A DNA stretch of 31,373 nucleotides from positions 1 through 31,373 of the IMG/VR virus record IMGVR_UViG_3300047509_000099. One strand, written 5' to 3'. Numbering within the stretch: the first letter of the stretch is position 1; each line of letters starts with the position of its first letter. Below are positions 1,669 through 30,484 of this stretch, piece by piece. The position numbers and the translations under genes are program-made. Source of the stretch: a virus. The notes under the pieces were generated by a model. The model was not told where the DNA came from, made no database searches, and saw only the letters and a program-made list of their open reading frames with translations.

Positions 1669-1959
1669 ATGGCACAAGCGGAATATGTTAAACGCGAGAT
1701 GGTTCCATCGCCGCTCGGCAATACTACCGTCGCCGTGACGATCGGAGCCGTACACAACGAATCCGCGGCAATCCCGGCTTATATAGTTCGTCTCGTTGCT
1801 ACGGCGGCGTGCTTCGTTGCCTTCGGTACTTCTCCGGTTGCAACGGCTTCCAGTATGTATCTAGCTCCTAACGTACCTGAGCGGTTCGCGTTCAACAATG
1901 GTGATCTTATCTCTGCGCTGCAAGCCGTTGGCGGCGGGACGCTATATATCACGTACTAG
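1669..1959 (+). CDS. Small beta-rich phage structural-type protein
   Basis: A 96-residue protein preceded by a good purine-rich site (GGAAGGAAG about 6 bases before the ATG). It is beta-rich and uncharged in its core: VRLVATAACFVAFGTSP, then a Ser/Thr-rich turn, YLAPNVPERF, and a C-terminal GGGTLYIT strand. Similar small proteins with a central 'ATAACFVAFG'-like strand and a terminal 'TLYIT' strand occur in the head-gene regions of many tailed phages, usually without a named function. A capsid-associated or decoration role is plausible but inferred only from location and fold impression. It ends seven bases before the start of the large protease fusion. Confidence 0.6.
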   Translation: MAQAEYVKREMVPSPLGNTTVAVTIGAVHNESAAIPAYIVRLVATAACFVAFGTSPVATASSMYLAPNVPERFAFNNGDLISALQAVGGGTLYITY

Positions 1960-1966
1960 TTCTTCA

Positions 1967-10480: not shown

Positions 10481-10481
10481 C

Positions 10482-11174
10482 TTAAGAGTTCAAACTCCTG
10501 AATTCCAGTATCATGTCAGTTGCTTTTTCTGGATCTTTGCGGATCAACCTTGCGGAGATTCGCAATCCTTTCCAGCCCATCTCACTGAGTATTGAGTCTT
10601 TTCGTTGGTCGAGCGCCTTGGCTTTGTCTGAGTTGTGAATCGTACCATCGACCTCAACGTACAGCTTCTTGGAAGGCAATGCAAAATCCAGATCAAAACA
10701 TCCAGGAAGACCGCCGCGAGGGTAGAGACCTGTCTTGACATGAAACTGATGCTTCCAGTGGCGCTTTGTAAACCAATCGAGGAGCAGAAGTTCCTCCGCG
10801 CTTATCCTGTTGAGTTTGGCCACAGGCTTCCAACCATTTGTGGGCGGCGGTGTATATTCACCAGTCATGACTTGCGCGATCAATGTTTGACTCAACCGTC
10901 CGCAGCGGATCTGGTGGGACTGTTCTACGCAGTCTGGATTATTGCAATGCACATTGTGATAATTTCGATGTGTCGGACCCATGTTGTAGTGAGTCGGATT
11001 GCCGCAGATTCGGCAGGGAGCACGCCAGTGATGGCGTGCCTTGTGAAAATCGCGGGATTCATTGGCGCATTTTCGGGAGCAATACTTCCGGTGCGGCCAA
11101 GCTGTAGCGTTCTTCTTCGGCTTCTGGAAAGTCTCACCGCAATGTTGGCATATCTTCGTCTCTACCTTGTCCAT
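10482..11174 (-). CDS. Zinc-finger plus DUF559/Vsr-like nuclease, probable free-standing homing endonuclease
   Basis: A 230-residue antisense gene between two structural genes. The N-terminus has CQHCGETF ... YCSRKC and then CRICGNPTHY ... HCNNPDC, two zinc-finger-like cysteine sets for DNA binding. The C-terminus has FDLDFALPSKKLYVEVDG followed by IHN and a Gly-Trp-Lys-Gly-Leu-Arg-Ile strand. That is the PD-(D/E)XK-like pattern of DUF559/Vsr nucleases, with D and E-x-D in the right order. The frame stays open upstream to a TTG at 11213; the ATG at 11174 (MDKVETKICQHCG) starts just before the first finger and is preferred. Local GC is visibly lower (roughly 42-52% in sampled 60-base lines, against about 65% in a sampled capsid line), consistent with transfer. 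It converges with the capsid gene. Confidence 0.75.
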   Translation of the reverse strand: MDKVETKICQHCGETFQKPKKNATAWPHRKYCSRKCANESRDFHKARHHWRAPCRICGNPTHYNMGPTHRNYHNVHCNNPDCVEQSHQIRCGRLSQTLIAQVMTGEYTPPPTNGWKPVAKLNRISAEELLLLDWFTKRHWKHQFHVKTGLYPRGGLPGCFDLDFALPSKKLYVEVDGTIHNSDKAKALDQRKDSILSEMGWKGLRISARLIRKDPEKATDMILEFRSLNS

Positions 11175-11183
11175 AACTTTTTG

Positions 11184-11213
11184 ATTGTAGCAAAGGCTCA
11201 ACCATGACTTCAA
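11184..11213 (-). promoter_or_regulatory. Candidate promoter for the antisense endonuclease, near-leaderless
   Basis: Reading the minus strand, TTGAAG (11208-11213) and TACAAT (11184-11189) are separated by 18 bases, a good match to sigma70-type spacing. TACAAT ends nine bases before the preferred ATG at 11174, so a transcript would have almost no leader. No Shine-Dalgarno is visible. This would let the selfish gene be expressed independently of the late operon. Confidence 0.4.
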
Positions 11214-11659
11214 CGGTCAGATTCTGCGCCCGCCCGCATGAAAAGACGGTAGACTTTCGGACCTCGCGGTTCGTGGTCGGCAAAGCGTGCGGCATCAATA
11301 CCTCAGCCGGCCATCTAGCGATGGGCGACGAGGTGCCGAGCGGCATACTGTCAGAGATCGCCTTGCGGCAACTCTACAATGCCTACACGGCGTTTCCCGG
11401 ACTGATCGAGACGGTCGAATCAGCGCTAAACAATCCAGACCCAGTCGTTCGCGAGGCTTGCGCCCGACGCGGAGTGGTTCTGGAAAACAAGATGCAGCCG
11501 GCGGAAGAAGTCGAACGGATGCCGGTCGCGTCTTCGGCGCTCGACGGTCTCGAAGAACTGAACCGCAAGCAGCTAGCGCAGCTCTGCGGCAAGTACGACC
11601 TCGAAGCGTCCGGAAACAGGGCGGAACTGATTGCAAGGCTCAAAGCAAGCCTGGCGTGA
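11204..11659 (+). CDS. SAP-domain head-region protein
   Basis: A 151-residue protein. Residues about 113-150 match a SAP motif: a first helix in LDGLEELNRKQLAQLC, then YDLEASGNRAELIARLKASL, with the usual Leu and Gly positions. SAP motifs are small helix-turn-helix units that often bind DNA or act as protein docking sites, and they occur in phage connector proteins. The N-terminal 110 residues are unfamiliar, although RFVVGKACGINTSAGH and an Ala/Glu-rich helix are visible. It is the first plus-strand gene after the antisense endonuclease, and its start overlaps the endonuclease's upstream region. The last 29 bases overlap the next gene in the +1 frame. Confidence 0.65.
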   Translation: MTSTVRFCARPHEKTVDFRTSRFVVGKACGINTSAGHLAMGDEVPSGILSEIALRQLYNAYTAFPGLIETVESALNNPDPVVREACARRGVVLENKMQPAEEVERMPVASSALDGLEELNRKQLAQLCGKYDLEASGNRAELIARLKASLA

Positions 11660-12206
11660 GACCTGGATCATCGGCGGTGGGCCGTCAGCCCGCGCCTTTG
11701 ATCTGGGATCTCTCCGTGGGCAAAACATCCTCGCCGTGAACGACTCGATTGATCTTCTCCTCAATTCCCTCCACAACACTTGCCATGGTGACTTCGCGCC
11801 GCCGTTGTTCTCGCTGGACAACCGGTGGATTCAGAGGCGGCGCGAGTTTTTGGCGGCGTATCCCGGAGACAAGTACCTCGCGGTGCCTCTCGATACGTGG
11901 CCAGAGTGCGGGGGGATTCCAGGTGCAACCTACTTGCGTTGGTCGCACGCGGACGGGTTGAGCGAAGATCTAGAAGTCGTTTGCACCGGCTGCAATTCAG
12001 GTTATGCAGCCATAAACCTCGCGTATCTCAAAGGAGCACAACTGATTCACCTCTTCGGGTACGACATGGACCCGAAGGACAACGACGCGTACGAATACTG
12101 GGCAAGCCTGTTCCGAAACATGCTGCCACAGCTGAATGCTCGCGGTATACAAGTGATCAACCACAATCCTCGTTCGTTCGTAACCGCGTTTCCAATGGCA
12201 GCATAA
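11631..12206 (+). CDS. MptE-like (DUF115-type) putative glycosyltransferase, copy 1
   Basis: A 191-residue protein beginning at a TTG. It has the fold markers of the DUF115/MptE-like and GT42-like group: WIIGGGPSARAFDL near the N-terminus, ILAVNDSID about 15 residues later, then CNSGYAAINLAYLKGAQLIH and LFGYDMDP, and a VINHNP strand near the end. Related proteins bind a sugar nucleotide or similar diphosphate through the N-terminal GGGPS loop. The protein clearly resembles the second copy at 29816-30484. It lies directly before the Ser/Thr-rich fibre and the four-domain glycosylation protein, which supports a sugar-transfer role. No ATG precedes the GGGPS loop in this frame, so a +1 frameshift fusion with the SAP protein is a minor alternative. 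Confidence 0.6.
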   Translation: MQGSKQAWRETWIIGGGPSARAFDLGSLRGQNILAVNDSIDLLLNSLHNTCHGDFAPPLFSLDNRWIQRRREFLAAYPGDKYLAVPLDTWPECGGIPGATYLRWSHADGLSEDLEVVCTGCNSGYAAINLAYLKGAQLIHLFGYDMDPKDNDAYEYWASLFRNMLPQLNARGIQVINHNPRSFVTAFPMAA

Positions 12207-12213
12207 GACGCCG

Positions 12214-14706
12214 ATGGCTCTCGACAACGCTAAGAACTTCGCCAAGGTAACGGTCTTCGGCGTGTATCATGCCGCCGATACGACAGTTACACTTCAGGCC
12301 GGCAACGGTGCCCTGCTCCCGACCGCTCCGTTCAACGCTACCTGGTGGGATTCGACGCTTTACCCTGATCCGTCGGACGATCCTTCAAGGGAGATCGTTC
12401 GCGTAACGGCAGTGGTCGGAGACGTACTGACCGTTATCCGCGGGCAGGAGCAGGCATACGGAGGTCTTCCGGCATCGGACAAGCTTCAGTTCGGCCACAA
12501 GTTCCAGATGTTGGCCGGGCTTACTGCCAAGGTTATAAACGTTGACATACAGGCTCTAGCTGGAAGTTCAGGCACGAGCGGCGTAACTGGTACGAGCGGA
12601 ACAGCCGGCACTAGCGGCTCAGCCGGTACGACCGGCACGAGCGGAACGTCTGGCAGCGCGGGCTCTTCCGGCAGTAGCGGCATAAGCGGGTCGAGCGGAA
12701 CGAGCGGAGCCGCAGGGCCATCCGGAACGTCGGGCACTAGCGGCGCTCCCGGTCCTGGAGGAACGTCCGGTACCAGCGGCGCACAAGGTCCGGCCGGATC
12801 GAGCGGTACGTCCGGCAACGTAGGACTCACCGGTTCGTCTGGCAGCAGCGGGAGCAGCGGCACTTCGGGGGCTGCCGGAGCGTCGGGAACCTCCGGCACC
12901 AACGCTGCCGGGTTCACCAGCGGCTCTTCAGGTACGTCCGGAGTAACGGGAAGTTCGGGCCAGACCGGGTCGAGCGGTACCAGCGGTACGTCCGGCACGA
13001 ACGGAGCGGTTGGGCCTGGCGGTTCATCTGGTACCTCCGGAGGACCGGGGCCGTCGGGAACATCCGGAACTAGCGGAGGAATCGGGCCTTCCGGAACCAG
13101 CGGCACGAGCGGCGGGGTAGGTCCATCGGGTAGTTCCGGAACCAGCGGAGCGGCAGGCACGTCTGGCACAGCGGGGACTTCTGGAACCGCCGGAACATCC
13201 GGCACGGCTGGTACATCGGGAAGCAGCGGGCTGACCGGAAGTTCCGGTACCAGCGGCGTAACTCCTGGCAATAACTACGAACTTGGGTTCATCAATGCCA
13301 CCACGGTAACGATAACCAGCGTTCAGCACGGGTTCAATCATCCGCACCTGATCGTTTCCGTCTACGACAACTCGTCGCCGAAGGTCGAGATCTACCCGAA
13401 CTCTCTGACGATAGATCCGACGACGTTCACGGTCGTTGTAACGTTTCTGGTTTCTCAGACAGGCTCAGTTGTCATCGCTGGCGGCGCAGGCAGTAGCGGC
13501 ACGAGCGGCACTTCCGGTGCAAGCGGATCGAGCGGAGCAACCGGTAGCAGCGGCGTATCCGGCTCCAGCGGGACATCGGGCACGAGCGGCATCGCTGGCT
13601 CCAGTGGAACATCTGGCGTAGCTCCAGGAGCGAACGTAGAGTTTCCGTTCACCAACGCCACGACGGTTACGGTAACAGGAGCAACCCACAACTTCGGGCA
13701 TGCCCATCTATTGGTTGAGGTCTACGACAACGCGTCGCCGAAGCACATCGTTCAACCAGCGGACGTAACGATCAACCCGGTTTCGTTCGACGTAGTCGTG
13801 ACGTTTGCGGCGTTGCAGTCCGGTTCGATCATAGTCGCCGGAGGAGCTGGAAGCGCGGGCAGCAGTGGCACCTCTGGGACTACAGGCACATCGGGATCGA
13901 GCGGCCTGTCCGGAGGCATAAACTACGAGACTACTTTCAGTGCCCAGACGACGGTCACCGTTCTCGGCACCGCTCACCAGTTCGGCCACGCTCACTTGCA
14001 GGTCGTCTGCTACGACAACGCGTCACCCAAGCAAGAGGTGTTGCCGGATACTATAACGGTCGATCCGAGCACGTTCAACGTCGTGGTGACGTTCACCGGC
14101 TCTCAGTCCGGTTCGATAGTCGTCAGCGGTGGCGGTGGGACGAGCGGTACGGCGGGATCGAGCGGCAGTAGCGGGTCGAGCGGCATAGTCGGATCATCCG
14201 GCACTTCTGGCACCAACGCGGCTGGGTTCACTTCTGGTACATCAGGGGTTAGCGGTTCGTCCGGTTCCTCTGGTTCGTCCGGCAGTAGTGGTACATCAGG
14301 GGCCGGAGGCGCAGCAGGATCGAGCGGTAGCAGCGGCTCGTCTGGTACGTCAGGTGCGGCGGGGGCCGCTGGTGCGGCTGGTAGCAGTGGTACGAGCGGG
14401 ACATCCGGAGCAGGAGGAGCCGCTGGAACATCAGGGTCAAGTGGAACCGCCGGAACTTCGGGCACTTCCGGGACTACGCCCGGATCAACAAGCTACGAGC
14501 AAGCGTTTACTGGGCAAACGAGCGTGACGGTGTTGGGAAGTTCTCACCTCTTCGCGCACGCTCGCATCGGAGTTTTCGTGTACGATACCCAAGCCCCGCG
14601 CCACATCGTTCAACCGGCGGATATAACGGTTGATGTATCGACTTTCAACGTGGTCGTAACCTTCGCAGCGTCCCAGGATGGCTCAGTAGTCTTGGTCGGC
14701 AAGTAG
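12214..14706 (+). CDS. Collagen-like Ser/Thr-rich fibre protein with four beta modules
   Basis: An 830-residue protein. Residues 1-110 form an N-terminal attachment-type domain (MALDNAKNFAKVTVFGVYHA ... IRGQEQAYGG). Residues about 116-353, 425-472, 545-568 and 640-759 are Gly-X-Y collagen-like repeats dominated by Gly-Thr-Ser and Gly-Ser-Ser, with scattered GPA, GAP and GPG. Between and after them lie four homologous modules of about 70 residues (354-424, 473-544, 569-639, 760-830). Each has a 'HxFxHAHL'-like turn, a 'VYDNxSPK' motif and a final 'FxVVVTF' strand. The product is likely a trimeric rod with knob domains, on the capsid or tail. The extreme Ser/Thr content makes it the obvious acceptor for the glycosylation enzymes encoded on each side. 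Confidence 0.82.
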   Translation: MALDNAKNFAKVTVFGVYHAADTTVTLQAGNGALLPTAPFNATWWDSTLYPDPSDDPSREIVRVTAVVGDVLTVIRGQEQAYGGLPASDKLQFGHKFQMLAGLTAKVINVDIQALAGSSGTSGVTGTSGTAGTSGSAGTTGTSGTSGSAGSSGSSGISGSSGTSGAAGPSGTSGTSGAPGPGGTSGTSGAQGPAGSSGTSGNVGLTGSSGSSGSSGTSGAAGASGTSGTNAAGFTSGSSGTSGVTGSSGQTGSSGTSGTSGTNGAVGPGGSSGTSGGPGPSGTSGTSGGIGPSGTSGTSGGVGPSGSSGTSGAAGTSGTAGTSGTAGTSGTAGTSGSSGLTGSSGTSGVTPGNNYELGFINATTVTITSVQHGFNHPHLIVSVYDNSSPKVEIYPNSLTIDPTTFTVVVTFLVSQTGSVVIAGGAGSSGTSGTSGASGSSGATGSSGVSGSSGTSGTSGIAGSSGTSGVAPGANVEFPFTNATTVTVTGATHNFGHAHLLVEVYDNASPKHIVQPADVTINPVSFDVVVTFAALQSGSIIVAGGAGSAGSSGTSGTTGTSGSSGLSGGINYETTFSAQTTVTVLGTAHQFGHAHLQVVCYDNASPKQEVLPDTITVDPSTFNVVVTFTGSQSGSIVVSGGGGTSGTAGSSGSSGSSGIVGSSGTSGTNAAGFTSGTSGVSGSSGSSGSSGSSGTSGAGGAAGSSGSSGSSGTSGAAGAAGAAGSSGTSGTSGAGGAAGTSGSSGTAGTSGTSGTTPGSTSYEQAFTGQTSVTVLGSSHLFAHARIGVFVYDTQAPRHIVQPADITVDVSTFNVVVTFAASQDGSVVLVGK
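12559..14487 (+). repeat. Tandem Gly-X-Y (GTS/GSS) coding repeats, interrupted by beta modules
   Basis: Nine-base units encoding Gly-Thr-Ser or Gly-Ser-Ser repeat through four blocks (about 12559-13272, 13486-13629, 13846-13918 and 14131-14490). The units are not identical in DNA: Gly, Thr and Ser codons are heavily shuffled (for example ggcacgagc, ggtacgtcc, ggcacttcg, ggaaccagc). The blocks could still recombine with each other and change fibre length. Confidence 0.85.
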
Positions 14707-14718
14707 TAAGATAGCGAA

Positions 14719-17700
14719 ATGAACTTTCAGACTCCGAATGGCAATCAGATCCGCCTCTCGTTCTGGGACGGATCACGCGTCGAGATCAGCGGGCCAAAGG
14801 ATGCCGAGTATCACGTTGAGTTCCGAGACGCCGCGGCAAGTGATCTCGTCGTCTCGGGTATCAGCATCAGCAAGCGAGATGTAATGCACTGGTGCTCGCC
14901 GACGATCTGGAACGGAGCGGTCCCGGCGTACTTCATAAAGTGGCACGTGACTGTTACGGAAGACGGAAAGCAGGTGCTCGACTACGTACTTGACCTGCAA
15001 GGCAAGGATGTTTATATCCAGATCAACAGTAGCGCACTGGGAGATACGATAGCATGGACTCCGTACGCTGAGGAGTTTCGAAAGAAGCACCAGTGCAATG
15101 TTCACGTCGCAACGTTTCACAACGAACTCTTCGCCGGCGAGTATCCGTACCTGGACTTCTGCAAGCCTGGTTCCGGGCATTCAGAGAAGTTCGACTTTGG
15201 CTACATCATTGGTTCGTTCGACGACCAGTACGCGCGGAACAAGAACAACTGGAGAACGATTCCGCTACAGCAGATCGCGTCAGACTACCTCGGGTTGGAT
15301 TACCGAGAGGTAAAGCCGAGGATTAGGCGGTCTGATCTGCCGCGTCCGATTCCGGAGAAGTACGTTGCCATCGCGGAGTTTAGTACGTTCGACTGCAAGC
15401 TATGGCTAAACCCTGACGGGTGGAACAAAACGGTTGAGCACCTGACTAGCCTCGGTCTTAAGGTCGTCTCGGTGAGTACCGAGCGTACGCAACTAAAGAA
15501 CGTTGTTTCTGCAAACGCGCGTCCCATCGAGGAGACGATCCGCAACATCCAGCACGCAGAGTTCTTCATCGGCGTGTCATCTGGTTGTGCGTGGCTCGCG
15601 TGGGCTCTCGGAGTGCCTACGGTTGTCATCTCCGGTTCAACCGATACTTTCACCGAGATGACCGACTGCTACCGCGTGATCAACAAGATGGTGTGTCACG
15701 GTTGCATCAACGACAAGGAGGTTCCGTTCGACCGCGGCAACCGGAGGCTCTGCCCGCGCAACAAGAACTTCGAGTGCTCAACATCTATCACGTTCAAGAT
15801 GGTAAAGGCTGCGATCGACAGGCTGATGAAGGATCACATGACGTACGTATTCCCGCCGGAAAAAGAGCAAAAGCAATCGGACGGAGTCCTGATGATCTTG
15901 CCGCACTGTTCTACGGGCGGACTTCCGCAGTACGCCTACCAGTGCGTTCGTGACCTCCGCAACGCCGGAGTGCCGGTAACCGTGATCGAGTGGAACGACT
16001 ACGGGAACTACGACGTGCAAAAGAAGCGGCTCAAGGCCATCGCTCCGTTCTACACGATGAGCGGCGACAAACTGAAGCAACTGCATCAGATCGTTGCCGA
16101 CGTTAACCCAAGCGTAATCCATTTGCAAGAGTTCGCGGAGTATTTTCTTCCTGAGAAAGTGGCGGGATATCTCTACCTAAAACCTCGCTCTTGCCAAATC
16201 GTTGAAACATCCCACGGGACTGAAGTAGTGGCTCCAAAAGATAAGAAGTACCTGCCAGATAGGTTCATCTTCGCGAGCCAATACCACATGGACAAGTATG
16301 CCGTTCTCGGAGTTCCGTCCAGCGTTGCCGAGTATCGAACTGAGCAGCAAGTAAGGCCGAACCGTACGGAAGCGCTGTCAAAGCTCGGCCTTATCTCCGA
16401 CCGCAAGCACGTTCTCAACGTCGGACTGTTCACTCCAGGCAAGAACCAGGGCGAACTGTTCGAGATCGCACGGAAACTCCCGGATATCCTGTTTCACTTC
16501 GTCGGCAACCAGGCTCCGAACTTCGCGGACTATTGGAAGCCGCTAATGGAGAGCAAGCCGGAGAACTGCATGATCTGGGGTGAGCGCCACGACGTTGAAC
16601 TCTTCTATGCCTCGATGGACTTGTTCTACTTTGCCTCAACGAACGAGTTCAACCCCATCGTGATCAAAGAAGCGTTGGCATGGCAGATGCCGATCCTGAT
16701 GAGGGACTTGGCGACCTACGGAGGAAAGTACCACCGGAATCCGCTAGTGGAGTTCATCAGCGTTACCGACAACGTTCGAAGTCTGGCTGAAAACCTGCGC
16801 CGCCGCTTCCGGACGCTAGGGAGCGATCTGCTTGATGCCTACAAGTTCGGGGAGCACGGCAGCACCCCGAAGCCGCCTGCTGGCGCTGCTTCCATCCCGG
16901 CCTCGGAGCAGGCACGAGCGAGCCGGGAGACTACCGCCGCTAGGTTACCTATACTGGTAGCCCAGGAACGCAGCCATCAGCCTGAAACCGCGCAAGAACA
17001 GGCAATCCCCGGCTGGTTCGATCCGGCAAACCGGAGGCAACTCGACGCGCTCATCAAGAAGCATGATATCCGGACTGTAATCGAGGTCGGGTCTTTCCTC
17101 GGCCTGTCAGCAGTATGGTTCGCGCGCAATCCTCAGATCGAGCGCGTAACATGCATCGATACTTGGGATACGGCAGGCGCCGAGAAGAACGATCCAGAAC
17201 TATTCGCAGAGATGACAAGGCTCGGCTTCTACGGAGACTTCCTCCCCATGTTCGTCTCCAACATGAAAGCGGCCGGTGTCTGGGACAAGATTGAGGTAGT
17301 TCTCGGGTTGTCCGGTGACGTTGCGTCGATGGTCGATCAGGCGGATCTTGTTTACATCGACGCGGACCACTCGCGGGCCGGCTGCTTGGCCGACATCAAA
17401 GCATATCTCCCAAAGGCGCGCAGGATCATCTGCGGTGACGACTACGTCGCGCGCCCGGAGTTCGGAGTGATCGAGGCGGTCAGCAAAGCGCTCCCAAAGC
17501 ACAAGCACTGCGGAGGGTACCCAGGCAACGGGCCGTTCTGGTGGGACTTTGTTTCTAGTTACTCGCCGGATTACTCGGAGGTTGCCGTCATCATTCCGAA
17601 CCTCAACTATGGCAAGACGCTGAAGCGGGCGATCATGAGCGCTCAGTCTCAAACGGTACCGCCATTAGAAATAATCGTTGTAGACGGCGGATCAAAGGAT

Positions 17701-18252
17701 GACTCGGCGCGAATATGCAAAGAGCTTGGGGTCGAGTTCATCGTCGAACGCAAAGGCAAGATGGCGCGAGCGAAGAACACCGGCGTAGAAAACTCGTTGG
17801 CAGAGTTCATCGTTCCTCTCGATGCCGATGACTGGATTGAACCGACCTATATCGAGCGCTGCCTAGAACGAATGACCGACGGCGTAGGAGTGGTTGCCAC
17901 GCAGTTGCAGTGGCCGGACGGCGGCATTCAGGTCCCAGATCCTCCGTTTACGGTAGAACGCCTGCTCGAACGGAACAGGCTGTTCTCCTGCTCGATGATC
18001 AGGCGTGCCGCGTTCGAAGCAATCGAGGGGTACGATGAGCATCCGGCGCTGTTCGAAGATTGGGACATGTGGCTCCGTATGGTTGCGGCCGGCTGGCAGA
18101 TCGGCGTGGTTGACGAGCCGCTGTTCCACTTCACATCGCGCAACTGCGGAGAGTTCGATGAGCGTATGTCGCGCGAGCAAGAGCGTGAGTACGCGGACTA
18201 CATGAGGACAAAGCATGAAGAGAGTCAGTCCAGGCTACTGGTTAAGGATTAA
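14719..18252 (+). CDS. Four-domain O-heptosyltransferase-like / GT4 / methyltransferase / GT2 fusion
   Basis: A 1177-residue protein. Residues 1-373 resemble the autotransporter O-heptosyltransferase family (TibC, Aah): ALGDTIAWTPYAEEF at 106-120, STFDCKLW at 222-229, FFIGVSSGCAWLAWALGVP at 282-300, and four cysteines C326, C329, C345 and C353 in the place of the family's iron-binding set. Residues 388-700 are a GT-B glycosyltransferase of GT4 type (GLFTPGKNQGEL at 569-580, E643-x7-E651). Residues 764-944 are a class I SAM methyltransferase (VIEVGSFLG at 787-795, YIDADHS at 879-885). Residues 953-1150 are a GT2 domain (IIPNLNYGKT, VVDGGS, DADD at 1035-1038, FEDWD at 1112-1116). A Pro/Ala/Gln-rich linker at about 705-763 separates the halves. 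It probably builds and modifies a glycan on Ser/Thr residues; the neighbouring fibre is the likely target. Full sugar identity is unknown. Confidence 0.85.
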   Translation: MNFQTPNGNQIRLSFWDGSRVEISGPKDAEYHVEFRDAAASDLVVSGISISKRDVMHWCSPTIWNGAVPAYFIKWHVTVTEDGKQVLDYVLDLQGKDVYIQINSSALGDTIAWTPYAEEFRKKHQCNVHVATFHNELFAGEYPYLDFCKPGSGHSEKFDFGYIIGSFDDQYARNKNNWRTIPLQQIASDYLGLDYREVKPRIRRSDLPRPIPEKYVAIAEFSTFDCKLWLNPDGWNKTVEHLTSLGLKVVSVSTERTQLKNVVSANARPIEETIRNIQHAEFFIGVSSGCAWLAWALGVPTVVISGSTDTFTEMTDCYRVINKMVCHGCINDKEVPFDRGNRRLCPRNKNFECSTSITFKMVKAAIDRLMKDHMTYVFPPEKEQKQSDGVLMILPHCSTGGLPQYAYQCVRDLRNAGVPVTVIEWNDYGNYDVQKKRLKAIAPFYTMSGDKLKQLHQIVADVNPSVIHLQEFAEYFLPEKVAGYLYLKPRSCQIVETSHGTEVVAPKDKKYLPDRFIFASQYHMDKYAVLGVPSSVAEYRTEQQVRPNRTEALSKLGLISDRKHVLNVGLFTPGKNQGELFEIARKLPDILFHFVGNQAPNFADYWKPLMESKPENCMIWGERHDVELFYASMDLFYFASTNEFNPIVIKEALAWQMPILMRDLATYGGKYHRNPLVEFISVTDNVRSLAENLRRRFRTLGSDLLDAYKFGEHGSTPKPPAGAASIPASEQARASRETTAARLPILVAQERSHQPETAQEQAIPGWFDPANRRQLDALIKKHDIRTVIEVGSFLGLSAVWFARNPQIERVTCIDTWDTAGAEKNDPELFAEMTRLGFYGDFLPMFVSNMKAAGVWDKIEVVLGLSGDVASMVDQADLVYIDADHSRAGCLADIKAYLPKARRIICGDDYVARPEFGVIEAVSKALPKHKHCGGYPGNGPFWWDFVSSYSPDYSEVAVIIPNLNYGKTLKRAIMSAQSQTVPPLEIIVVDGGSKDDSARICKELGVEFIVERKGKMARAKNTGVENSLAEFIVPLDADDWIEPTYIERCLERMTDGVGVVATQLQWPDGGIQVPDPPFTVERLLERNRLFSCSMIRRAAFEAIEGYDEHPALFEDWDMWLRMVAAGWQIGVVDEPLFHFTSRNCGEFDERMSREQEREYADYMRTKHEESQSRLLVKD

Positions 18253-18796
18253 CCTTCCGTACATCTTGTGGCTTTTGATCGGAGCCGTTCTCATCTATTC
18301 ACAGCAGACGTTCAATGGGAACGTCAACGTGCGCGGAAACGTTCAGTCCGGCTATCAGAGCGGAAAGTCCGGGTTTACTGGATGGTCTGGGAAGACGGAC
18401 GGAGGCGTTCAGGCGATCGGAGTTCCTGACGCTGCTGGAGGACCAACGCTGTACATGATGCCTGCTACCGCTCCCGCCACTGCTGGGCAAATCTTCCAGG
18501 ATACTGGCACCGCAACATGTCCTACACTTGCAGCCGGATCGCCTGCGTTTACGTGCCGTCAACTGACATGGATACCGCATAGCTTCGCGGCGGCGGAAAG
18601 TTCCAGTTCGACCTGGACGATCACCGGGGCTACGCACAATCTTGGCTCGTGCGATATACAGGTGCAGACCTGGAACAACGCGAGCCCGCAAGCACTGATA
18701 ACTCCTACCGCTGTGACGTGCGATCAGTCCGGTACGTTCAACGTCGTGATTACGTTCGGCTCCGCTCAGGTCGGTCGCGTGGTCCTATCGAGGTAA
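18215..18796 (+). CDS. Exported or membrane-anchored protein with fibre-type beta module
   Basis: A 193-residue protein. It starts inside the end of the glycosylation gene (38-base overlap) with GAGG upstream. Residues about 12-28 (INLPYILWLLIGAVLIY) are a signal peptide or membrane anchor, followed by SQQTFNGNVNVRGNVQ. The C-terminal 70 residues (TITGATHNLGSCDIQVQTWN ... FNVVITFGSAQVGRVVLSR) are homologous to the four beta modules of the collagen-like fibre. It therefore looks like an appendage or adhesin part that is carried to, or anchored in, a membrane. Six cysteines or fewer are present, with the middle containing CPTLAAGSPAFTCRQ. Confidence 0.65.
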   Translation: MKRVSPGYWLRINLPYILWLLIGAVLIYSQQTFNGNVNVRGNVQSGYQSGKSGFTGWSGKTDGGVQAIGVPDAAGGPTLYMMPATAPATAGQIFQDTGTATCPTLAAGSPAFTCRQLTWIPHSFAAAESSSSTWTITGATHNLGSCDIQVQTWNNASPQALITPTAVTCDQSGTFNVVITFGSAQVGRVVLSR

Positions 18797-18805
18797 CAAA
18801 CTAAT

Positions 18806-20068
18806 ATGAATAAGAAGCTTCTGTGGGCGGCATTCGGCGGCGCAGTATTGGTGTCTTTACTCTTTGGGCAGCAGGTCATCAACGGGTACCGCGACTACGT
18901 TCTGTCAGCCGCTCCGGGAAATCCGGCGAGCGGTCGCATCAGGATATATCAAGACAGCGCTACGCTGAGATCCGGATGCAAGGATACGAACGGAAAAGGA
19001 TGCTACGCGGCGAACGTCGTCAACGACAACGTTACATCAGTCAACAATGCAGCTTCGCCGTATACGGTCGTCATCGCCGACGGGTACATCAATTGCGATG
19101 CCACCGGCGGCGCGGTAACGTTGACGCTCCCGGCAGCGACCGGGTCCGGCCGCGAGATCAGCTTCAAGAAGATCGATTCATCCGCCAACGCGTGCACTCC
19201 CACTCTGGCCGGGTCGGATACGATCGAAGGGCAAACGACGTACTCTCTGACCTCGCAAGGTACTTCGAGCAAGATCGTGGATGCCTTGGCGAACACCGTA
19301 GTATCCGGCACCTATACCAGCGGCGGATCGATCACCGGATCGACGAGTCAAACGTGTACTCTCACCGCGCTGAACGGAGGCGGAGCGAACGCGACCGCGA
19401 CGGTAGCACTGACCGGTACGAACGCCATCGCCGGTGGGACTGCCATCGTAATTACGGACTACGGCAGCGGGTATGGCAGCGCGCCAACGTCGGCAACGCT
19501 CGGCAACGGAACGGCGACGTGCAGCGGTACGGCGGTGATATCGACGACCACGGCAGGCATGTGGCAGAGGTCGCACGTCAACCAGCTTGGTGGAGACGTG
19601 ACCGGGCCAAGTACTGCGAATACGGTGAAGTCTTTGAACGGAGTTCTGCTATCTGGTCTGGTAACCGGACTACTAAAGATCACCACCGGCACCGGCGCTC
19701 CGTCGATCGCTACGGCGGCGGACATTCCGGCGGCTGCAACCGTGTTCGGTTCCGGTACCATCACGATTCCGGCGGGAAACTCGGTGATCGTCGGCTGCAC
19801 CTCAACCTGTTCCGTGCCGGTACCCGTTCCCGCGGCAGGTTATCAGATCTGCATCAAGAACGATGCCGGGATAACTACCGTGATCACACTGTCAGCGCTC
19901 GGTTCTTCCGCGATGTATCCCAAGGCGGATGACTCCGGCTACGGCACGGCCGGAACGGGCACGATGGTGGGTAGCGCGGCTACAAACAAAGTATGCCTAG
20001 TCGGGCGCGACGCCACGCACTACGAACTGGGGGCGATCAACGCCGCCGCAAACTGGACGGTGAACTAA
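18806..20068 (+). CDS. Signal-bearing fibre-like protein with GSGY-type repeat
   Basis: A 420-residue protein with a short basic start and a hydrophobic core (MNKKLLWAAFGGAVLVSLLF) followed by GQQVINGYRDY. The same 'QQ-x-(F/I)-NG' arrangement follows the hydrophobic segment of the preceding protein. Residues about 175-240 carry a TLTALNGGGANATATVAL ... DYGSGYGSAPTSATL motif, common in phage fibre and adhesin-like repeats. The rest is Ala/Gly/Thr-rich beta structure with VTLTLPAATGSGREISFKK, which resembles tail-fibre shaft segments. No enzymatic site is seen. No clear Shine-Dalgarno precedes the ATG. The stop TAA overlaps the next ATG as TAATG. Confidence 0.6.
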   Translation: MNKKLLWAAFGGAVLVSLLFGQQVINGYRDYVLSAAPGNPASGRIRIYQDSATLRSGCKDTNGKGCYAANVVNDNVTSVNNAASPYTVVIADGYINCDATGGAVTLTLPAATGSGREISFKKIDSSANACTPTLAGSDTIEGQTTYSLTSQGTSSKIVDALANTVVSGTYTSGGSITGSTSQTCTLTALNGGGANATATVALTGTNAIAGGTAIVITDYGSGYGSAPTSATLGNGTATCSGTAVISTTTAGMWQRSHVNQLGGDVTGPSTANTVKSLNGVLLSGLVTGLLKITTGTGAPSIATAADIPAAATVFGSGTITIPAGNSVIVGCTSTCSVPVPVPAAGYQICIKNDAGITTVITLSALGSSAMYPKADDSGYGTAGTGTMVGSAATNKVCLVGRDATHYELGAINAAANWTVN

Positions 20069-21204
20069 TGAAGATCGTTGCCTTTTTTCTTCTGCTTACT
20101 ACGTTACCTGCGTGGGGCGGGCAACCGGTTCCACAACGTATTGCCCGTATCCCAGGTAGGATGCTTCACCTTGTGTTAAAGCACCCTCCCTTCAAACCCA
20201 TCACAGCAGATATTCCAATAGAGAGTTTTGCACCGCAGATCCTTGTCAGCATCTTCGGTGGTGCTCCCGGAATCGCCGCTCCGCCAGCCTTCATCCAGTC
20301 CTTTTCCGGAGATTGCGACGGTTCGTGCGGAACGTCCGTAGCTACTGCAGCCTCATCTAGCCCGACAATCTCCGGGCATTTGAATGTTGTAGGGTGGGGT
20401 ACGCAACGCGACTGCGGAGCAACCGGCTTTGGTAATTTCGTGGTCACGGCAACAACCTCGACCGGGGTAATGCGCCCTACGGACCTCGGCTTAAATATAT
20501 ACACTCCGATCATTCCTGTCAGCGGTGTATCCTTGATTGGCGCGGAGATCTCGAACGGAGGGACTAACTATGGTACACCCGCCTGTACAGTGAGCGGCGG
20601 GGGTACTTGTACCGCACTCGCAACTGCCGGAGTAGTCACCCAGCTTACAATCCTCACTGGCACTGGCTATACTCCGTCTAGTCCGGCTGTCATTACCATA
20701 ACGGACGGCTCGCTGACGGGTTCTGGAGCAACTGCGATTCCGATTGCGTACGGGATTGGGCAAGTGAATCGGTGTTTAGCTGGATGGATCGCTCCGAACA
20801 TCACGGGACATGCTAGCGAAATAGTAACTGTAAAGGATAATCAGATATCGCTGTATACGGGCGTCATCGCCGTGGAATTATCGGGATTGGCGCTGACCAG
20901 CCCAATAGACGGAGTAGCCAGCGCAACTGGGACGGGGTCTTCCTCGATCACCGCGAGCGCATATACAACCACCGGGACATCTGATGGCAGCGTATGCTTT
21001 GGACGCGTCGAAGCACTCAGCCAAACCGGCGGCGCGGCATGGGCAGCTGGGACTGGGTATACCATTGCACCTGGCGCTCTGGTCCCAGATACATTCATGA
21101 ACGCACAATATCGAGTAAATTTTGCGCCTAACGGAACGACGCCATCTATTTCCAGCGGTTCCACGGCAGCTCGCGCGATACTTTGCGTAGCGCTTCATCA
21201 GTAA
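20068..21204 (+). CDS. Signal-bearing fibre-like protein
   Basis: A 378-residue protein. The ATG at 20068 overlaps the preceding stop (TAATG); the longer open frame from 19993 would run into the previous coding sequence. Residues 1-18 (MKIVAFFLLLTTLPAWGG) are a classical Sec signal peptide with a likely cleavage site at Ala-Trp-Gly-Gly. The mature part has two Cys-rich beta segments and a GGTNYGTPACTVSGGG ... GTGYTPSSPAVITI repeat of the same type as in the previous gene. A final jelly-roll-like domain follows (VELSGLAL, SVCFGRVEALSQ). Surface or virion appendage role is likely; exact partner unknown. It converges with the antisense miniprotein one base downstream. Confidence 0.6.
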   Translation: MKIVAFFLLLTTLPAWGGQPVPQRIARIPGRMLHLVLKHPPFKPITADIPIESFAPQILVSIFGGAPGIAAPPAFIQSFSGDCDGSCGTSVATAASSSPTISGHLNVVGWGTQRDCGATGFGNFVVTATTSTGVMRPTDLGLNIYTPIIPVSGVSLIGAEISNGGTNYGTPACTVSGGGTCTALATAGVVTQLTILTGTGYTPSSPAVITITDGSLTGSGATAIPIAYGIGQVNRCLAGWIAPNITGHASEIVTVKDNQISLYTGVIAVELSGLALTSPIDGVASATGTGSSSITASAYTTTGTSDGSVCFGRVEALSQTGGAAWAAGTGYTIAPGALVPDTFMNAQYRVNFAPNGTTPSISSGSTAARAILCVALHQ

Positions 21205-21205
21205 C

Positions 21206-21343
21206 TTACATGCGCCCGGCCTTCATTTTTCGTCTGGCTTCCATATGCGGGTCGGCGGTAGCCCAGAGCATCGTGAAGAAAGTACCGACCGCTCCGAGAA
21301 GTACACCTGAAAGCAGTCCAACGATAAATTCAAGGTTTGTCAT
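21206..21343 (-). CDS. Antisense 45-residue single-pass membrane protein
   Basis: A small gene that fills the gap between two plus-strand genes exactly: it ends one base after one and starts over the start codon of the other. The protein has NLEFIVGLLSGVLLGAVGTF as a membrane segment and a basic end (HMEARRKMKAGRM). Its CAT start (21341-21343) shares the palindromic CATG with the plus-strand ATG at 21342. A perfect TATAAT (minus strand, 21351-21356) lies seven bases upstream of the ATG, so its message could be leaderless. The frame is open further upstream, but that would run into the plus-strand gene. Function unknown; a membrane regulator or exclusion peptide is possible. Confidence 0.6.
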   Translation of the reverse strand: MTNLEFIVGLLSGVLLGAVGTFFTMLWATADPHMEARRKMKAGRM

Positions 21344-24300
21344 GGGCGTAATTATACTACTTTTCCTCAGCGCCGTATTGGCTTGGCCACAGACCGCCAT
21401 CACCGGCCTGGGCGGCTCCACGCTCAATATGGTGGACCGGGATGGCGACGGTTATGGCGTCGGCCCTCCGGTCATTATCAACACCACGGTAGCGTCCACG
21501 ATCACGGCGGGTGCGACGAGCGTAACGCCGGTCAGCATGGTTGCCGGGACGACCACAGGCACTACGCTAAACAACACCGCAACGGTCAATGTGCTTTCTA
21601 ACGGAACCGTGAATCGAACGGGAGGTGCGGCCACATTCACTCAGAGCGGCGCCTATGGGCAAGCGGTCTCGACATATATCGTAATTCCAGGAGCGGGGTG
21701 CCCAACTGTGGCGACCGTGACAGACGCCTGCACGGTAGCCAGCATCACCACCGGCAATCAATTGCTGCTGTGTACAACCGGCCCATGTCCAGGGTCCTAC
21801 ACGCCCGTCACTGGAGCGACGGCGACCTGGGCGACCTCCTACATCGAACTGACGAGCGTGGCCGCCGTACAATCTGGGGAAGTGCTGGCATCAAGCCCGG
21901 CTGGGATTCTCGGGACGGTCCAGATGATCGAACCGTTCAAGACGATGGCTCAGCCGAACGGCATCTTGGTTTCCCCGCAGCCATTACTACCTTACACGAG
22001 CGGCACGATAACCTTCAGCATCGGCGTGGGTATGACGTTGCGCGTGTTCCAGCAGGACGGCAGCGGAAATTTGCTTTGGCCTGGCAGCACGGAGTACGTG
22101 CAAGTGGCGTCAGTCACCAGCACGAGCTTCACGACCGTTTATCCGTTTGCGTTCACGCACAACACGTCTAACGGGACGATACACCTCACCGATTTGCGCT
22201 CTCTCGGGCCGGACGCGGATGACCTGGATGCCACGGTCCACACCGGTCAACAGTTGATCGCCAAGTACACCTCCGGAGCCACTTTCCCGGCAACGAATGC
22301 GGCGGTGCTAGCAGCAGTGAAGGCGCTCTACACCCCCGCGCGGGGCTACACGACTGTGACGAACGTAGACTACGGCCCCTATAACCCGGCGCATATCTGG
22401 TACATTGCCCCAGGTTCGGCGACTGCGGCTTGCATCGCAAACAACGGCTCCAGCACTGGGTGCGTGGGCAACGACTCTACCGGCGCGGTCAACAATCCAG
22501 GACTGCCGTTTCTTACCTGCGCGGCGCTGGTATCCCATCTGGTTGTCGGGGATATGGTGCTTGGCCGTGATGGTTTTACGGATCAGTGCAACATCCCTAG
22601 CGGGTCTTCGGGGAGTCCGGTAATTTTCATGAGCTACCCAGGCGAGATGGTGGCCTTCGATGCGTCGTCAGTGACGGCCGGGATATTCTTCGGCGCTCAG
22701 CATGACATCGTAGTCGATAACGTCCGGTTTCAGAATAACGGCCAACTCTCTGGAGGTGGAACAAATCTATATGCAACAACGCAGAGCTTTCACGACATAA
22801 TCATTCGCCACGTGGACGCGGGGACCGGAGTGACGGGCGGTGAGGCGTGCTGGGTGGCCCAGTGGTCTGGCTTTGCCAATCTGATTATCGAAGACAATTC
22901 CTGTCACAACGCTTTCGAGCATGGTATGTATTTAGGCACCACTTACATACCAGCCCCCGGCTTACGTGTGTGGCGCAATGTATTCTTTGATAATGGCTGG
23001 ACGGCCCTGCACCTGAACGGCCTCGTTACCGGGGCGCTCGTTCAGCAGAACCTTAGCTATGGCACCACGGTTAACTCGTTCGACATTCAGAGCGGCGTCA
23101 ACAATTCCACGTTTTCGAGCAATATTGCCGTCGCCACTGATCCGCTCAACGATACCATTGCAATCGCTATCGACAACTACAAGGACCAAAGCGACTGCGA
23201 CGGCACGTCCTCTTCGCTTGGCGATTTGGCCTGTGTGGTGAACGCCGCCACATGGTCAGCAGGTACGGCCACCATCGGATTCTCCAACGTTGGAACCGGG
23301 GTGGATTTTTGCGTCGGCTGCTATATGTACGTGTTTGGGGTCACCCCTTCCGGGTACAACTGCACCAACGCGCAAGGACATCCGCAGGGCTGCATCATTA
23401 CTGCGGTAGACCGCACCACACCGTCAAACCCGCTTGTGAGCTATGCAGTCGCGTCCAATCCAGGTACGTATGTCTCTACTACCACAGGCCGCGCCGGGCA
23501 GGGCGTCGGTGATTCGATTAACAATGTCATCGAGAATAATACCTTCATTAGCGAGCAAGCCCGCTCCCCAGTAATCTACGTCGTCAACTACTGTTCGGCG
23601 CATGGCGACACTAGCAAGTGCCCGACGATCAGTGGTACTCCTGACACGATCTCAGCAGGCAGCATCGACAATCTGACGATCCGAAACAATGTGTTGATCA
23701 ACAATGGAGCCTCGGTACAGGGCTCCGGGGATGCCGCCGGTGTCCCCCACATGGCCGTCGCCTTCGCCAACTCCAACGACGCTGGCAGTCCGTACTGCTG
23801 TGCGAACTACCTGCCAACCGCCACCATCGATCACAATCTGGTATTCGATATGTCCGATCCCACGGGCGCAAATAAGTGGGCTATCGGCAGTAGCGAGCCT
23901 ACCTGTGCTGGAACTTCAGACCAGTACTCGGCCTATTCCGTGACCGGGGTATCGTTAGTGGGGACGTGCTCGAATCTGTCATTCACAACCGGATCTCTCA
24001 CCGGCAATATCTGGGGCGACCCTAAAATTGTCACCTCAGCCCCATTGATGCTCTCCTATGTGTTCCCGGAAGCATTCGACGCACGGCTACTAAATACGTC
24101 TCCTGCCTTTCACACCGGCTCAACCACCAACCTGCCGCCGTATGACGCTTTGGGCCGTGGCTATATTGGCAACCCGGCCCCGTCTATTGGCGCGCTGGAG
24201 CGGAACCTGTACACGTATGGCTGGAACAATCTCGGCGTTGGCCTGTACAACGCCTCCATCGTTCCGGCAGGCCACACGGCTACCTGTCCGATCAATGGTG

Positions 24301-26288: not shown

Positions 26289-26431
26289 CGTACGGCGGAG
26301 CCGCTTACGCCTCGGTAGAATACGCGGCCCTGATCCAGATCGCCGGTCCGCCCATTCCGACCGGTCCGTTCCCCGGCCTCGTGTTTCCGTCCGACCGTCC
26401 GATAGGCAAAGTGGTCGAGAGCGACATATGA
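26285..26431 (+). CDS. 48-residue hypothetical protein, doubly coupled
   Basis: An ORF below 60 residues that starts on an ATGA overlap with the large spike gene and ends on an ATGA overlap with the adaptor gene (26428-26431). The sequence starts MTYGGAAYASVEYAALIQ and then is Pro/Gly-rich (GPPIPTGPFPGLVFPSDR). The exact fit to both neighbours supports expression. It may be a small chaperone-like or connector peptide; no family is recognised. Confidence 0.55.
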   Translation: MTYGGAAYASVEYAALIQIAGPPIPTGPFPGLVFPSDRPIGKVVESDI

Positions 26432-27204
26432 GCAACCTGTACTATCCAGGGTCGATGACGCGCCTCAGCGGGCCTGGAGGCGGCCCTCTGTTTACCGACA
26501 TCAACGGCAACGCGGCGGACCCATCGACCGTGTCGCTGTTCGTCATAGCGCCGGACGGAACCAGCGTCACGTACCAGTACAATCCGGGACCGATCGTGCG
26601 CGACGGCGTCGGCATGTACCACTATGACCTGACGCTTAACCAAAAAGACAAGTGGCTGTACGAGTGGATCGGGACCGGAGTGCTGACCGTCGTCGGTCCA
26701 GGCGAGATCGAGGTACTGCCGTTTCCGCCGTTCGGCTGGAGCTACTCCGGAGATCCCTCACAGAGCGCTAAAGACGAAGTCCGGTTCCTCATCCGTGATA
26801 CCGACCGGACGAAGCCGTGGACACTCCAGGACGCCGAGATCCAGTACAACATTAAACTGTACTCCGCCAACCCACCGGTAATCGGGCAGAATCTCTTAGC
26901 CGCTGCTATCTCCTGCGAACAGTTGCTTGGGCGGTTCTTTGCTCTTCCAAAGTCGAAGAAGGTAGGCGACCTGAGCCTGGAATTCGATTACAAGTATTTG
27001 CAGAGCCTTGCGTTCACCCTTCGGCAGCGCGCGAACCTCCAAGGCGTCAAGCCGTACATCGGTGGCGTGAGCAAGCAAGAGAAGTCTTCGGTATATTCTG
27101 ATCCGGATCGCGTGGGAACGGCCATAAATATTGACGGGATGTCCAACCCCAACGCGACCGAAATCAATGCTAACGCCGGAGACTCCGAAGGGCGAGAGCC
27201 GTAA
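26428..27204 (+). CDS. Head-tail adaptor (gp6-like) with N-terminal Ig-like domain
   Basis: A 258-residue protein. Residues about 15-95 form a beta domain (PLFTDINGNAADPSTVSLFV, then YHYDLTL and YEWIGTG), similar to the domain that precedes many phage adaptor or baseplate proteins. Residues about 110-205 match the gp6-like head-tail connector layout: SAKDEVRFLIRDTDR, PWTLQDAEIQYNI, an Ala-rich AAAISCEQLLGRFF helix, then a YLQSLAFTLRQRA helix. Such proteins bind under the portal and form the first neck ring. It starts on an ATGA overlap. Its location 16 kb after the capsid gene is unusual. Confidence 0.75.
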   Translation: MSNLYYPGSMTRLSGPGGGPLFTDINGNAADPSTVSLFVIAPDGTSVTYQYNPGPIVRDGVGMYHYDLTLNQKDKWLYEWIGTGVLTVVGPGEIEVLPFPPFGWSYSGDPSQSAKDEVRFLIRDTDRTKPWTLQDAEIQYNIKLYSANPPVIGQNLLAAAISCEQLLGRFFALPKSKKVGDLSLEFDYKYLQSLAFTLRQRANLQGVKPYIGGVSKQEKSSVYSDPDRVGTAINIDGMSNPNATEINANAGDSEGREP

Positions 27205-27224
27205 CTTTTGAAAAGGAGACACAC

Positions 27225-27533
27225 ATGGCTGCCTTAACGACGCCGCGAGAGGCGTTTTACGTTCCGACGCAAGCCGACCTCAACAGCGGGAATCCGCTGT
27301 TCTGGCAGGCAAACGCGCTCGCTATTCCGAAAGCAATGCTACTTACCTTTTGGGCCGGCGCAACAACCTATTGGGCATGGTGGCGTTACGTCCAGCAATT
27401 CTATAAGCCGAATGCGTTCTTTGACGCGGAAGCCGCCGGCTACAACGATGCCTTCGAGACGGCACAATACTACTTGTGGTTCAACGATCCGAACTCTCCA
27501 CACAACAAACAAGTAGACGCAGGTAAAGCCTAG
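27225..27533 (+). CDS. Small Trp/Tyr-rich hypothetical protein
   Basis: A 102-residue protein with a strong Shine-Dalgarno (AGGAG at 27214-27218). It is rich in Trp, Tyr and Phe (TFWAGATTYWAWWRYVQQFY) and acidic near the C-terminus (NDAFETAQYYLWFND). The aromatic centre could be a membrane-contact or compact structural element. It lies between the adaptor and head-closure genes, so it may be a neck accessory. No family is recognised. Its TAG stop overlaps the next start as TAGTG. Confidence 0.55.
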   Translation: MAALTTPREAFYVPTQADLNSGNPLFWQANALAIPKAMLLTFWAGATTYWAWWRYVQQFYKPNAFFDAEAAGYNDAFETAQYYLWFNDPNSPHNKQVDAGKA

Positions 27534-27685: not shown

Positions 27686-27687
27686 GG

Positions 27688-28053: not shown

Positions 28054-28055
28054 TC

Positions 28056-29608: not shown

Positions 29609-29819
29609 ACGGGCGTTTTTTGCTAGCCTCTTCGGGGGCGGATCGTTAGCAGCGGTTGCATCAATAAACAATCCATATCCAAGCGGCGGCTACATTGCGA
29701 AATCGGCGGGTACGGTTTATATTCGTAATTGCAACTGCTCCGTACTATCAAAGTCTCAAGTCGAAAAACTCATAAACCAGGCAATGCGTTCAGCAAGAGT
29801 TTCAGGAGCAAAGATATGA
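29601..29819 (+). CDS. Small protein with a twin-arginine-like signal
   Basis: A 72-residue protein that starts MNRRAFFASLFGGGSLAAVA, which has the twin-arginine pattern (RRAFF) and a modest hydrophobic region with small residues before a possible cleavage site. The remainder has an NCNC motif near residue 45 and a basic helix (VEKLINQAMRSARV). Tat export would require a folded, cofactor-bearing or fast-folding product; here the mature protein is very small. It may be exported or membrane-held. It sits just before the second MptE-like gene, whose ATG overlaps its stop. Confidence 0.5.
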   Translation: MNRRAFFASLFGGGSLAAVASINNPYPSGGYIAKSAGTVYIRNCNCSVLSKSQVEKLINQAMRSARVSGAKI

Positions 29820-30484
29820 TCTGGACCGTACCAAAGACGTGGGTAGGTGAGACGGCGTTCATCTTGGCCGGCGGTCCGTCGCTCAAGGGATTCAAGTCGG
29901 AGATGCTTCGCGGCAAAGGCCGTATTATCACGATCAACGATTCATGGCGCTTGCACCCCAAGGCGGACGTGCACTACTTCTGTGAGCGCCGATGGTTCAC
30001 CGATCAGATCGGGCGAAACTACTGGGTCGGCCTCGGCACCGAGAAGCAGATCAACTTTCATGATCTGATCTACAAGGGCTTCTGGGTCTGCGGCGGTACC
30101 GGTTTCGAAGATCACCCTCAGGTACATCAGTTGAAGTTTACTGGGCAGGTCGGGCTGGAAACAGATCCGACCGGACTGAGACATGGATCGAACTCCGGTT
30201 ACGCGGCTATAAATTTGGCGTTCCTGTTTGGTGCAAAGCGGATCGTGCTGCTCGGCTACGACATGCGCTGCGTCGGACAGAGGTCGCACTGGCACGACAA
30301 CACTCCGCATACGGCCGCGGAATTCGCCAACATTCTCAAGCATTCGATGCTGCCATTGTTCGACGGACTCGTTGAGCCGCTCGCTCAAGCGGGAGTAGAA
30401 GTCATCAACGCTACGCCGGACTCTGAACTGAAGTGCTGGCCGTACGTTCCGTTGGGGGAGATTCTGGAAGGAGTTGCAGCATGA
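29816..30484 (+). CDS. MptE-like (DUF115-type) putative glycosyltransferase, copy 2
   Basis: A 222-residue protein. ATG at 29816 overlaps the previous stop (ATGA) and has AGGAG seven bases upstream; the open frame back to 29729 is not needed. It carries the same ordered motifs as copy 1: FILAGGPSLKGFK, IITINDSW, HGSNSGYAAINLAFLFGAKR, VLLGYDMR and VINATP, with an extra His-rich SHWHDN loop. Copy 1 has the same spacing but is shorter. Both are probably nucleotide-sugar or diphosphate-binding enzymes. The two flank the region from the fibre block to the connector genes. The stop overlaps the next ATG. Confidence 0.6.
   Translation: MIWTVPKTWVGETAFILAGGPSLKGFKSEMLRGKGRIITINDSWRLHPKADVHYFCERRWFTDQIGRNYWVGLGTEKQINFHDLIYKGFWVCGGTGFEDHPQVHQLKFTGQVGLETDPTGLRHGSNSGYAAINLAFLFGAKRIVLLGYDMRCVGQRSHWHDNTPHTAAEFANILKHSMLPLFDGLVEPLAQAGVEVINATPDSELKCWPYVPLGEILEGVAA

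Follow-up and report, generated by a model that had tools for sequence, protein, structure and literature searches.

Whether a phage might glycosylate its own fibre by means of an enzyme encoded beside it is the question raised by the IMG/VR virus record IMGVR_UViG_3300047509_000099, the whole of which (31,373 bases, ~56-57% G+C, with no tRNA genes found) is referred to here as the window. It carries a phage-encoded glycosyltransferase gene adjoining the gene of a virion protein: a fibre rich in Gly-Thr-Ser (GTS) and Gly-Ser-Ser (GSS) units is followed, starting 12 bp past its stop codon, by a large multi-domain enzyme (Table 1). A preliminary description of this DNA, whose positions for both ORFs are exact, had proposed that the phage builds a methylated glycan on its own repeat fibre, with an MptE-like transferase as a further part of the system. 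The analysis reported here makes it quite probable that the locus encodes a protein O-glycosylation pair, consisting of a TibC-like domain and the neighbouring Gly-(Thr/Ser)-Ser fibre. The TibC-like identity and the pairing with repeats, measured against controls, speak for the proposal, and the MptE-like gene drops out of its core.

The fibre was said to be dominated by GTS and GSS units, and this holds: Gly, Ser and Thr make up 55% of its 830 residues, and GTS (39) and GSS (34) provide 73 of the 127 triplets found in runs of at least four Gly-X-X, forming tracts of a kind that random viral loci lack (see below). Glycine recurs at every third residue of the tracts, and Pfam Collagen matches the protein at 1e-43. 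However, the collagen hallmark of Pro-rich, helix-stabilising X/Y positions is missing from the window fibre, where Pro takes up ~2% of these positions (0-6% in other loci), and because Pro is so low a classical stable triple helix is not to be assumed. Among 43 non-redundant phage loci, the second position of the triplet is Thr (54%) or Ser (34%), the third is Ser in 80%, and Pro is nearly absent. The 72-aa beta domain that alternates with the repeat blocks gave a confident structure model (pLDDT 97) with no confident PDB match in a structure search, so that the fold cannot tell a head fibre from a tail fibre.

The preliminary description had also read the enzyme as a single ORF joining an O-heptosyltransferase-like domain, a GT4, a methyltransferase and a GT2, and each of these is matched by a profile: TIGR04414 (TibC/AAH O-heptosyltransferase) at aa 9-368 with 1.6e-77 and 261 bits against a curated cut-off of 200, Glycos_transf_1 (GT4) at aa 550-691, Methyltransf_24 at aa 788-902 and GT2 at aa 957-1150. 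Grouping of the N-terminal domain with O-heptosyltransferases had been set as a check beforehand, and it was passed in sequence and in fold. Besides the profile score, the domain matches the PDB sequences of solved TibC (4rap/4rb4) at 1e-45, and its AlphaFold model (pLDDT 92, from a 31-sequence alignment and no templates) is placed by Foldseek with TibC at a TM of ~0.9 over the whole domain, N-terminal barrel, catalytic part and iron finger included (E 7e-37), LPS heptosyltransferases coming next at a TM of ~0.5. By profile, solved-structure sequence and modelled fold, the domain is of the TibC-like protein-Ser glycosyltransferase type, its catalysis being predicted.

Table 1. Positions in the window of the fibre, the enzyme and associated genes
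Feature	Position	Strand	Remarks
MptE/GT42-like putative transferase	11631..12206	+	phrog_4603; accessory
Fibre gene	12214..14706	+	830 aa; N-terminal ~110 aa domain, then four Gly-X-X blocks (mostly GTS/GSS) alternating with four 72-aa beta domain copies
Gly-X-X block 1	12562..13263	+	aa 117-350, short interruptions; proposed acceptor (Ser, third position)
Gly-X-X block 2	13489..13623	+	aa 426-470
Gly-X-X block 3	13849..13911	+	aa 546-566
Gly-X-X block 4	14137..14478	+	aa 642-755, short interruptions
Multi-domain glycan-building enzyme	14719..18252	+	1177 aa
TibC-like protein O-glycosyltransferase domain	14719..15834	+	aa 1-372; profile, solved-structure sequence, fold
GT4 glycosyltransferase domain	15901..16878	+	~aa 395-720
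Methyltransferase domain	17026..17493	+	~aa 770-925; Methyltransf_24
GT2 glycosyltransferase domain	17551..18249	+	aa 945-1177
Small protein	18215..18796	+	hydrophobic signal-anchor-like N-terminus; fifth copy of the fibre beta domain (18581-18793)
Second MptE/GT42-like paralogue	29729..30484	+	better-matching phrog_4603

The mechanism of TibC involves Asp110, Thr226, Lys230, Trp305 and the iron cysteines, together with Arg286, a residue in contact with adenine N1 and required for TibC to be active (PMC4358343). In the window enzyme, Asp110 (catalytic base), Thr226, Lys230 and Trp305 (sugar site) correspond to D109, T223, K227 and W292, and the iron-finger cysteines 339, 342, 358 and 370 to C326, C329, C345 and C353. 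An alignment of 115 TibC-like domains keeps the catalytic Asp and Trp305 in all 115 and the iron cysteines in nearly all. Arg286 is not kept in the window enzyme, which has T273 there, so the enzyme could differ from TibC in the donor it uses or even in whether it is active, and the sugar donor may be something other than ADP-heptose.

The expectation that homologues would adjoin Ser/Thr-rich Gly-X-X repeat proteins was borne out by a co-occurrence search. Scanning IMG/VR with the aligned TibC-like domain returned relatives on at least 589 viral contigs, and the best 80 of these at least 589 were taken; loci were thus chosen by enzyme similarity and not by their neighbours, in a set biased to window-like enzymes. 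A tract was defined as at least eight Gly-X-X with at least half Ser/Thr, within the fetched stretch (10 kb), and the same detector served for all controls. Tracts lie within 10 kb in 54 of 86 viral enzyme loci, compared with none of 120 viral loci drawn at random through an arbitrary 14-mer (1.02 Mb; p 2e-27) and 3 of 59 T4-like terminase loci (p 1e-13), the latter an imperfect control whose query came from a phage having the enzyme-fibre pair. Once near-copies were removed, 43/69 loci had a tract, and this became 30/36 where both flanks reached at least 5 kb and 14/16 where both reached at least 8 kb; the median enzyme-tract distance over all GTS-positive non-redundant loci was 2.2 kb. A tract occurs elsewhere in 5 of 23 records that have none nearby, and a GTS tract is missing from some enzyme loci despite their long flanks. 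For the converse, a GTS DNA pattern was used to pick viral records no shorter than 30 kb: TIGR04414 was present in 22 of 50 (21 over the cut-off), as against 0/46 random records of the same minimum length, and the other 28 show no enzyme, many records being fragments. Altogether, this co-occurrence shows a functional link between enzyme and repeat, which is not proof of the reaction.

The architecture of the enzyme varies among phages, with GT4 fused in 35 of 44 phage enzymes and the domain order permuted from phage to phage. The pair is present in a cultured phage, Microcystis phage Mel-JY01, in which the TibC-like domain forms the C-terminal part of a 1227-aa ORF that carries the annotation 'methyltransferase FkbM'. 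At another locus (L004), all four domains recur in a full-length homologue, and the GTS/GSS fibre encoded upstream of it has a podophage fibre-tail adaptor as its N-terminus; since this phage has a different capsid family, the pair moves between unrelated phages. In a 735-kb phage (L006, 2107-10077), two large glycosyltransferase ORFs, of which one includes a TibC-like domain, adjoin a GSS/GTS fibre.

The same partnership is found in bacteria. Nine proteobacterial loci (L093, L099, L101, L104, L109, L114, L121, L122, L125), of which L104 is from Methylomicrobium, code for a free-standing enzyme (~370-440 aa) and, 17-1130 bp away, for small secreted proteins with (GTS/GSS)n tracts; several of these proteins have a lipoprotein-like LxGC motif, and in several cases the tracts end in acidic residues. 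These loci were chosen for having the tract, so the genome scan speaks to specificity and not to frequency: across the nine genomes, ~35 Mb in all, DNA matches to the strict (Gly-Ser/Thr-Ser/Thr)5 pattern are almost all beside the enzyme, with one extra place in G004 and, in G001, strict matches ~17 kb from the enzyme. Two GTS/GSS lipoprotein-like genes occur near one TibC-like gene in L101 (8530-8919, 11273-11899), and L099 and L114 are similar, all in gammaproteobacterial genomes.

A tree of the 115 domains contains a branch with 100% support that parts 27 canonical enzymes (clade A), not one of which has a GTS tract nearby, from the other 88 (clade B), 56 of which do. Arg286 of TibC is kept in 27/27 of the former versus 17/88 of the latter, and TIGR04415, the autotransporter repeat that serves canonical members as acceptor, was detected in 12 of 15 genomes whose enzymes are of the canonical clade versus 0 of 11 with window-clade enzymes. 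One genome (G607) has two tandem canonical TibC-like genes (L450) and no TIGR04415 repeat. An autotransporter-type repeat was also considered as a hidden acceptor and rejected, since neither the window nor any of the 47 phage records searched contains this strand-loop-strand repeat. Judged from these sequence comparisons, the clade of the window enzyme is distinct from the autotransporter heptosyltransferases, and what it generally partners, in phages as in some bacteria, is the GTS/GSS repeat. Because neither Arg286 nor the autotransporter partner was found, we name the domain TibC-like and do not treat it as a strict BAHT member. Two further traits of that group, assembly into a dodecamer and transfer of heptose to Ser from ADP-heptose, are biochemical.

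Phage glycosyltransferases beside tail-fibre genes have been read in the literature as modifiers of the host surface (PMC7029224), and the enzyme could likewise alter host LPS or capsule and so block competing phages, as its GT2 domain, through a weak resemblance to GtrB-like O-antigen conversion families confined to the GT2 core, might suggest. However, its lead domain is of the TibC protein-Ser glycosyltransferase type and its partners are repeat proteins, which in bacteria are secreted GTS/GSS proteins and not phage tail parts. Moreover, an association of any phage glycosyltransferase with GTS tracts is ruled out by phage GT2 loci without a TibC domain, none of which has a tract (0/72 in 1.07 Mb, against 54/86; p 6e-20). 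The window proteins that were scanned include no GtrA or GtrC family match, which speaks against GtrABC-type O-antigen modification, and no transmembrane tail can be seen past GT2. We therefore consider modification of the host surface unlikely.

The genomic setting bears on a second alternative. The major capsid protein shares 42-44% identity with counterparts in ~63-kb phages of Pseudomonas and Roseobacter, which makes a Gram-negative host likely. In the related phages RDJL Phi 1 and KPP23 the major capsid gene is separated from the neck genes by ~0.7 kb, whereas in the window this interval spans ~17.8 kb (10,481-28,264) and holds the fibre, the enzyme, an antisense nuclease gene and several further ORFs of probable structural kind; by this comparison of gene order, the fibre is a component of an inserted block, and both a head fibre and a tail fibre are compatible with it. 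The antisense gene (10482-11213, minus strand), directly after the capsid gene, encodes a DUF559/MTES_1575-type nuclease with a DUF2256 zinc-finger-like start, a putative mobile nuclease that perhaps helped the cassette to move. ORF 21183-26288 encodes a 1701-aa protein that has He_PIG Ig-like domains and matches, over a short stretch, a Kelch/He_PIG protein lying at the L004 edge. With so many probable structural ORFs in the cassette, and with known phage virion glycosylation lying on capsid and tail-tube proteins (Freeman 2023, as relayed in PMC12619734), another virion protein such as the He_PIG protein or the capsid might be the target and the GTS fibre a mere neighbour. We find this somewhat less plausible again, because the He_PIG protein has a relative in only one other locus and the GTS/GSS tract is the partner common to unrelated phages and bacterial lipoproteins. 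Least probable is a spurious linkage of two common but functionally uncoupled accessory genes of environmental phages, for although both sit in variable, fibre-rich regions and IMG/VR loci are phylogenetically non-independent, the pairing far exceeds that in the terminase (structural neighbourhood), GT2 and random controls and recurs in bacterial genomes in which the strict GTS pattern hardly occurs elsewhere.

For glycosylation of the fibre itself, the following course is proposed. In the cytoplasm of the infected cell, before virion assembly, the TibC-like domain would transfer a sugar, from a nucleotide-sugar (ADP-heptose or other) supplied by the host, to the repeat serines of the neighbouring fibre; the fused GT4 and GT2 would probably lengthen this first sugar and the methyltransferase domain probably cap the chain, giving a densely glycosylated, proline-poor fibre. 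The first step, priming of the repeats on Ser, is strongly suggested by the pairing, and glycan extension and methylation we infer only from the fused domains. In repeat proteins, TibC attaches heptose to Ser and not to Thr, one mapped site being Asn-Ser-Gly-Gly and another lying after Thr (PMC4358343), and the GTS/GSS repeat presents Ser between Thr/Ser and Gly. Against the repeat as acceptor, the known TibC substrate is a beta-helix, whereas the window repeat is an extended Gly-X-X chain. From this evidence we infer the repeats as acceptor, Ser as the site, and any effect on stability or recognition. The glycan could possibly stabilize the proline-poor chain, shield it or alter adsorption; the roles put forward in the preliminary description, concealment from the host or attachment to it, are conceivable.

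Synthesis of a heptose donor by the phage was rejected, gmhA having been detected in 2 of 50 phage records, one above the cut-off; because phages rarely carry gmhA, the donor is probably host-derived. ORF 1898-4939 (1013 aa), which combines ChaB, a histidine phosphatase, a 2'-5' RNA ligase-like domain (weak Acb1 anti-CBASS match) and an XkdF-type protease, gave a weak phosphoheptose-isomerase match that was not upheld in Pfam. The transferase gene flanking the fibre matches phrog_4603 'alpha-2,3-sialyltransferase' at 1.5e-14 and nothing in Pfam, and its diverged paralogue in the same phage has a weak MptE-like match (9e-5, below cut-off). The label MptE-like is thus fair though loose; a core role was rejected, since the gene recurs in only 2 other fetched related loci.

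A wider reading, on which we are evenly divided, is that the TibC-like clade has an acceptor code of its own, namely Ser of Gly-(Thr/Ser)-Ser repeats, and a donor other than ADP-heptose, and that in hundreds of phages (on fibres) and some bacteria (on secreted, lipoprotein-like repeat proteins) it would turn proline-poor collagen-like chains into glycosylated stalks. Phage fibre genes often have glycosyltransferases for neighbours, whose usual reading is that of host-surface modifiers, and a large group of these enzymes here has a specific partner in the phage itself. If the reading is true, many environmental phages carry glycosylated fibres and studies of adsorption and receptors need to change; a recombinant fibre would be the wrong molecule unless its enzyme were produced along with it; and a known enzyme family would gain a new acceptor rule, together with a simple pair from which glycosylated collagen-like protein could be made. 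The joining of a TibC-type enzyme with a phage and a GTS/GSS-type acceptor repeat was not found in the open literature searched, outside which most subscription journals lie. Virion glycosylation by phages was already known, in mycobacteriophages (as cited in PMC12619734 and PMC11256854), as were bacterial TibC-type enzymes; what the gene comparisons would add is their joining, the new acceptor repeat and the distinct clade.

Among known systems, TibC/AAH (BAHT; TIGR04414; PDB 4rap, 4rb4) is shared in a score over the cut-off, the fold, the catalytic Asp, the Thr/Lys/Trp set, the four-cysteine iron finger and an adjoining serine-rich repeat partner. Unlike TibC/AAH, the window enzyme is phage-encoded, belongs to a separate clade, has Arg286 replaced and is fused to GT4, methyltransferase and GT2 domains, and its partner is the GTS/GSS repeat in place of the autotransporter strand-loop-strand repeat. 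Mycobacteriophages such as Che8 use their own glycosyltransferases on their own virions (Freeman 2023, via PMC12619734, PMC11256854), as is predicted here from genes; their targets are the C-termini of capsid and tail-tube subunits, whereas in the window they would be a repeat fibre served by a TibC-type enzyme. BclA of Bacillus spores has collagen-like Gly-X-X repeats whose reported glycosylation is thought to aid hydration and stability (PMC8968730), but BclA-type repeats use Pro/Thr while those of the window are nearly Pro-free, and no TibC-type enzyme is described for the BclA type in that review. Lastly, the window fibre resembles the collagen-like tail fibres of phages (Pfam Collagen; PHROGs 5073, 6320, 1806) in its fibre annotation and in having Gly at every third residue, and differs from them in being Ser/Thr-rich and Pro-poor and in having a dedicated glycosyltransferase gene nearby.
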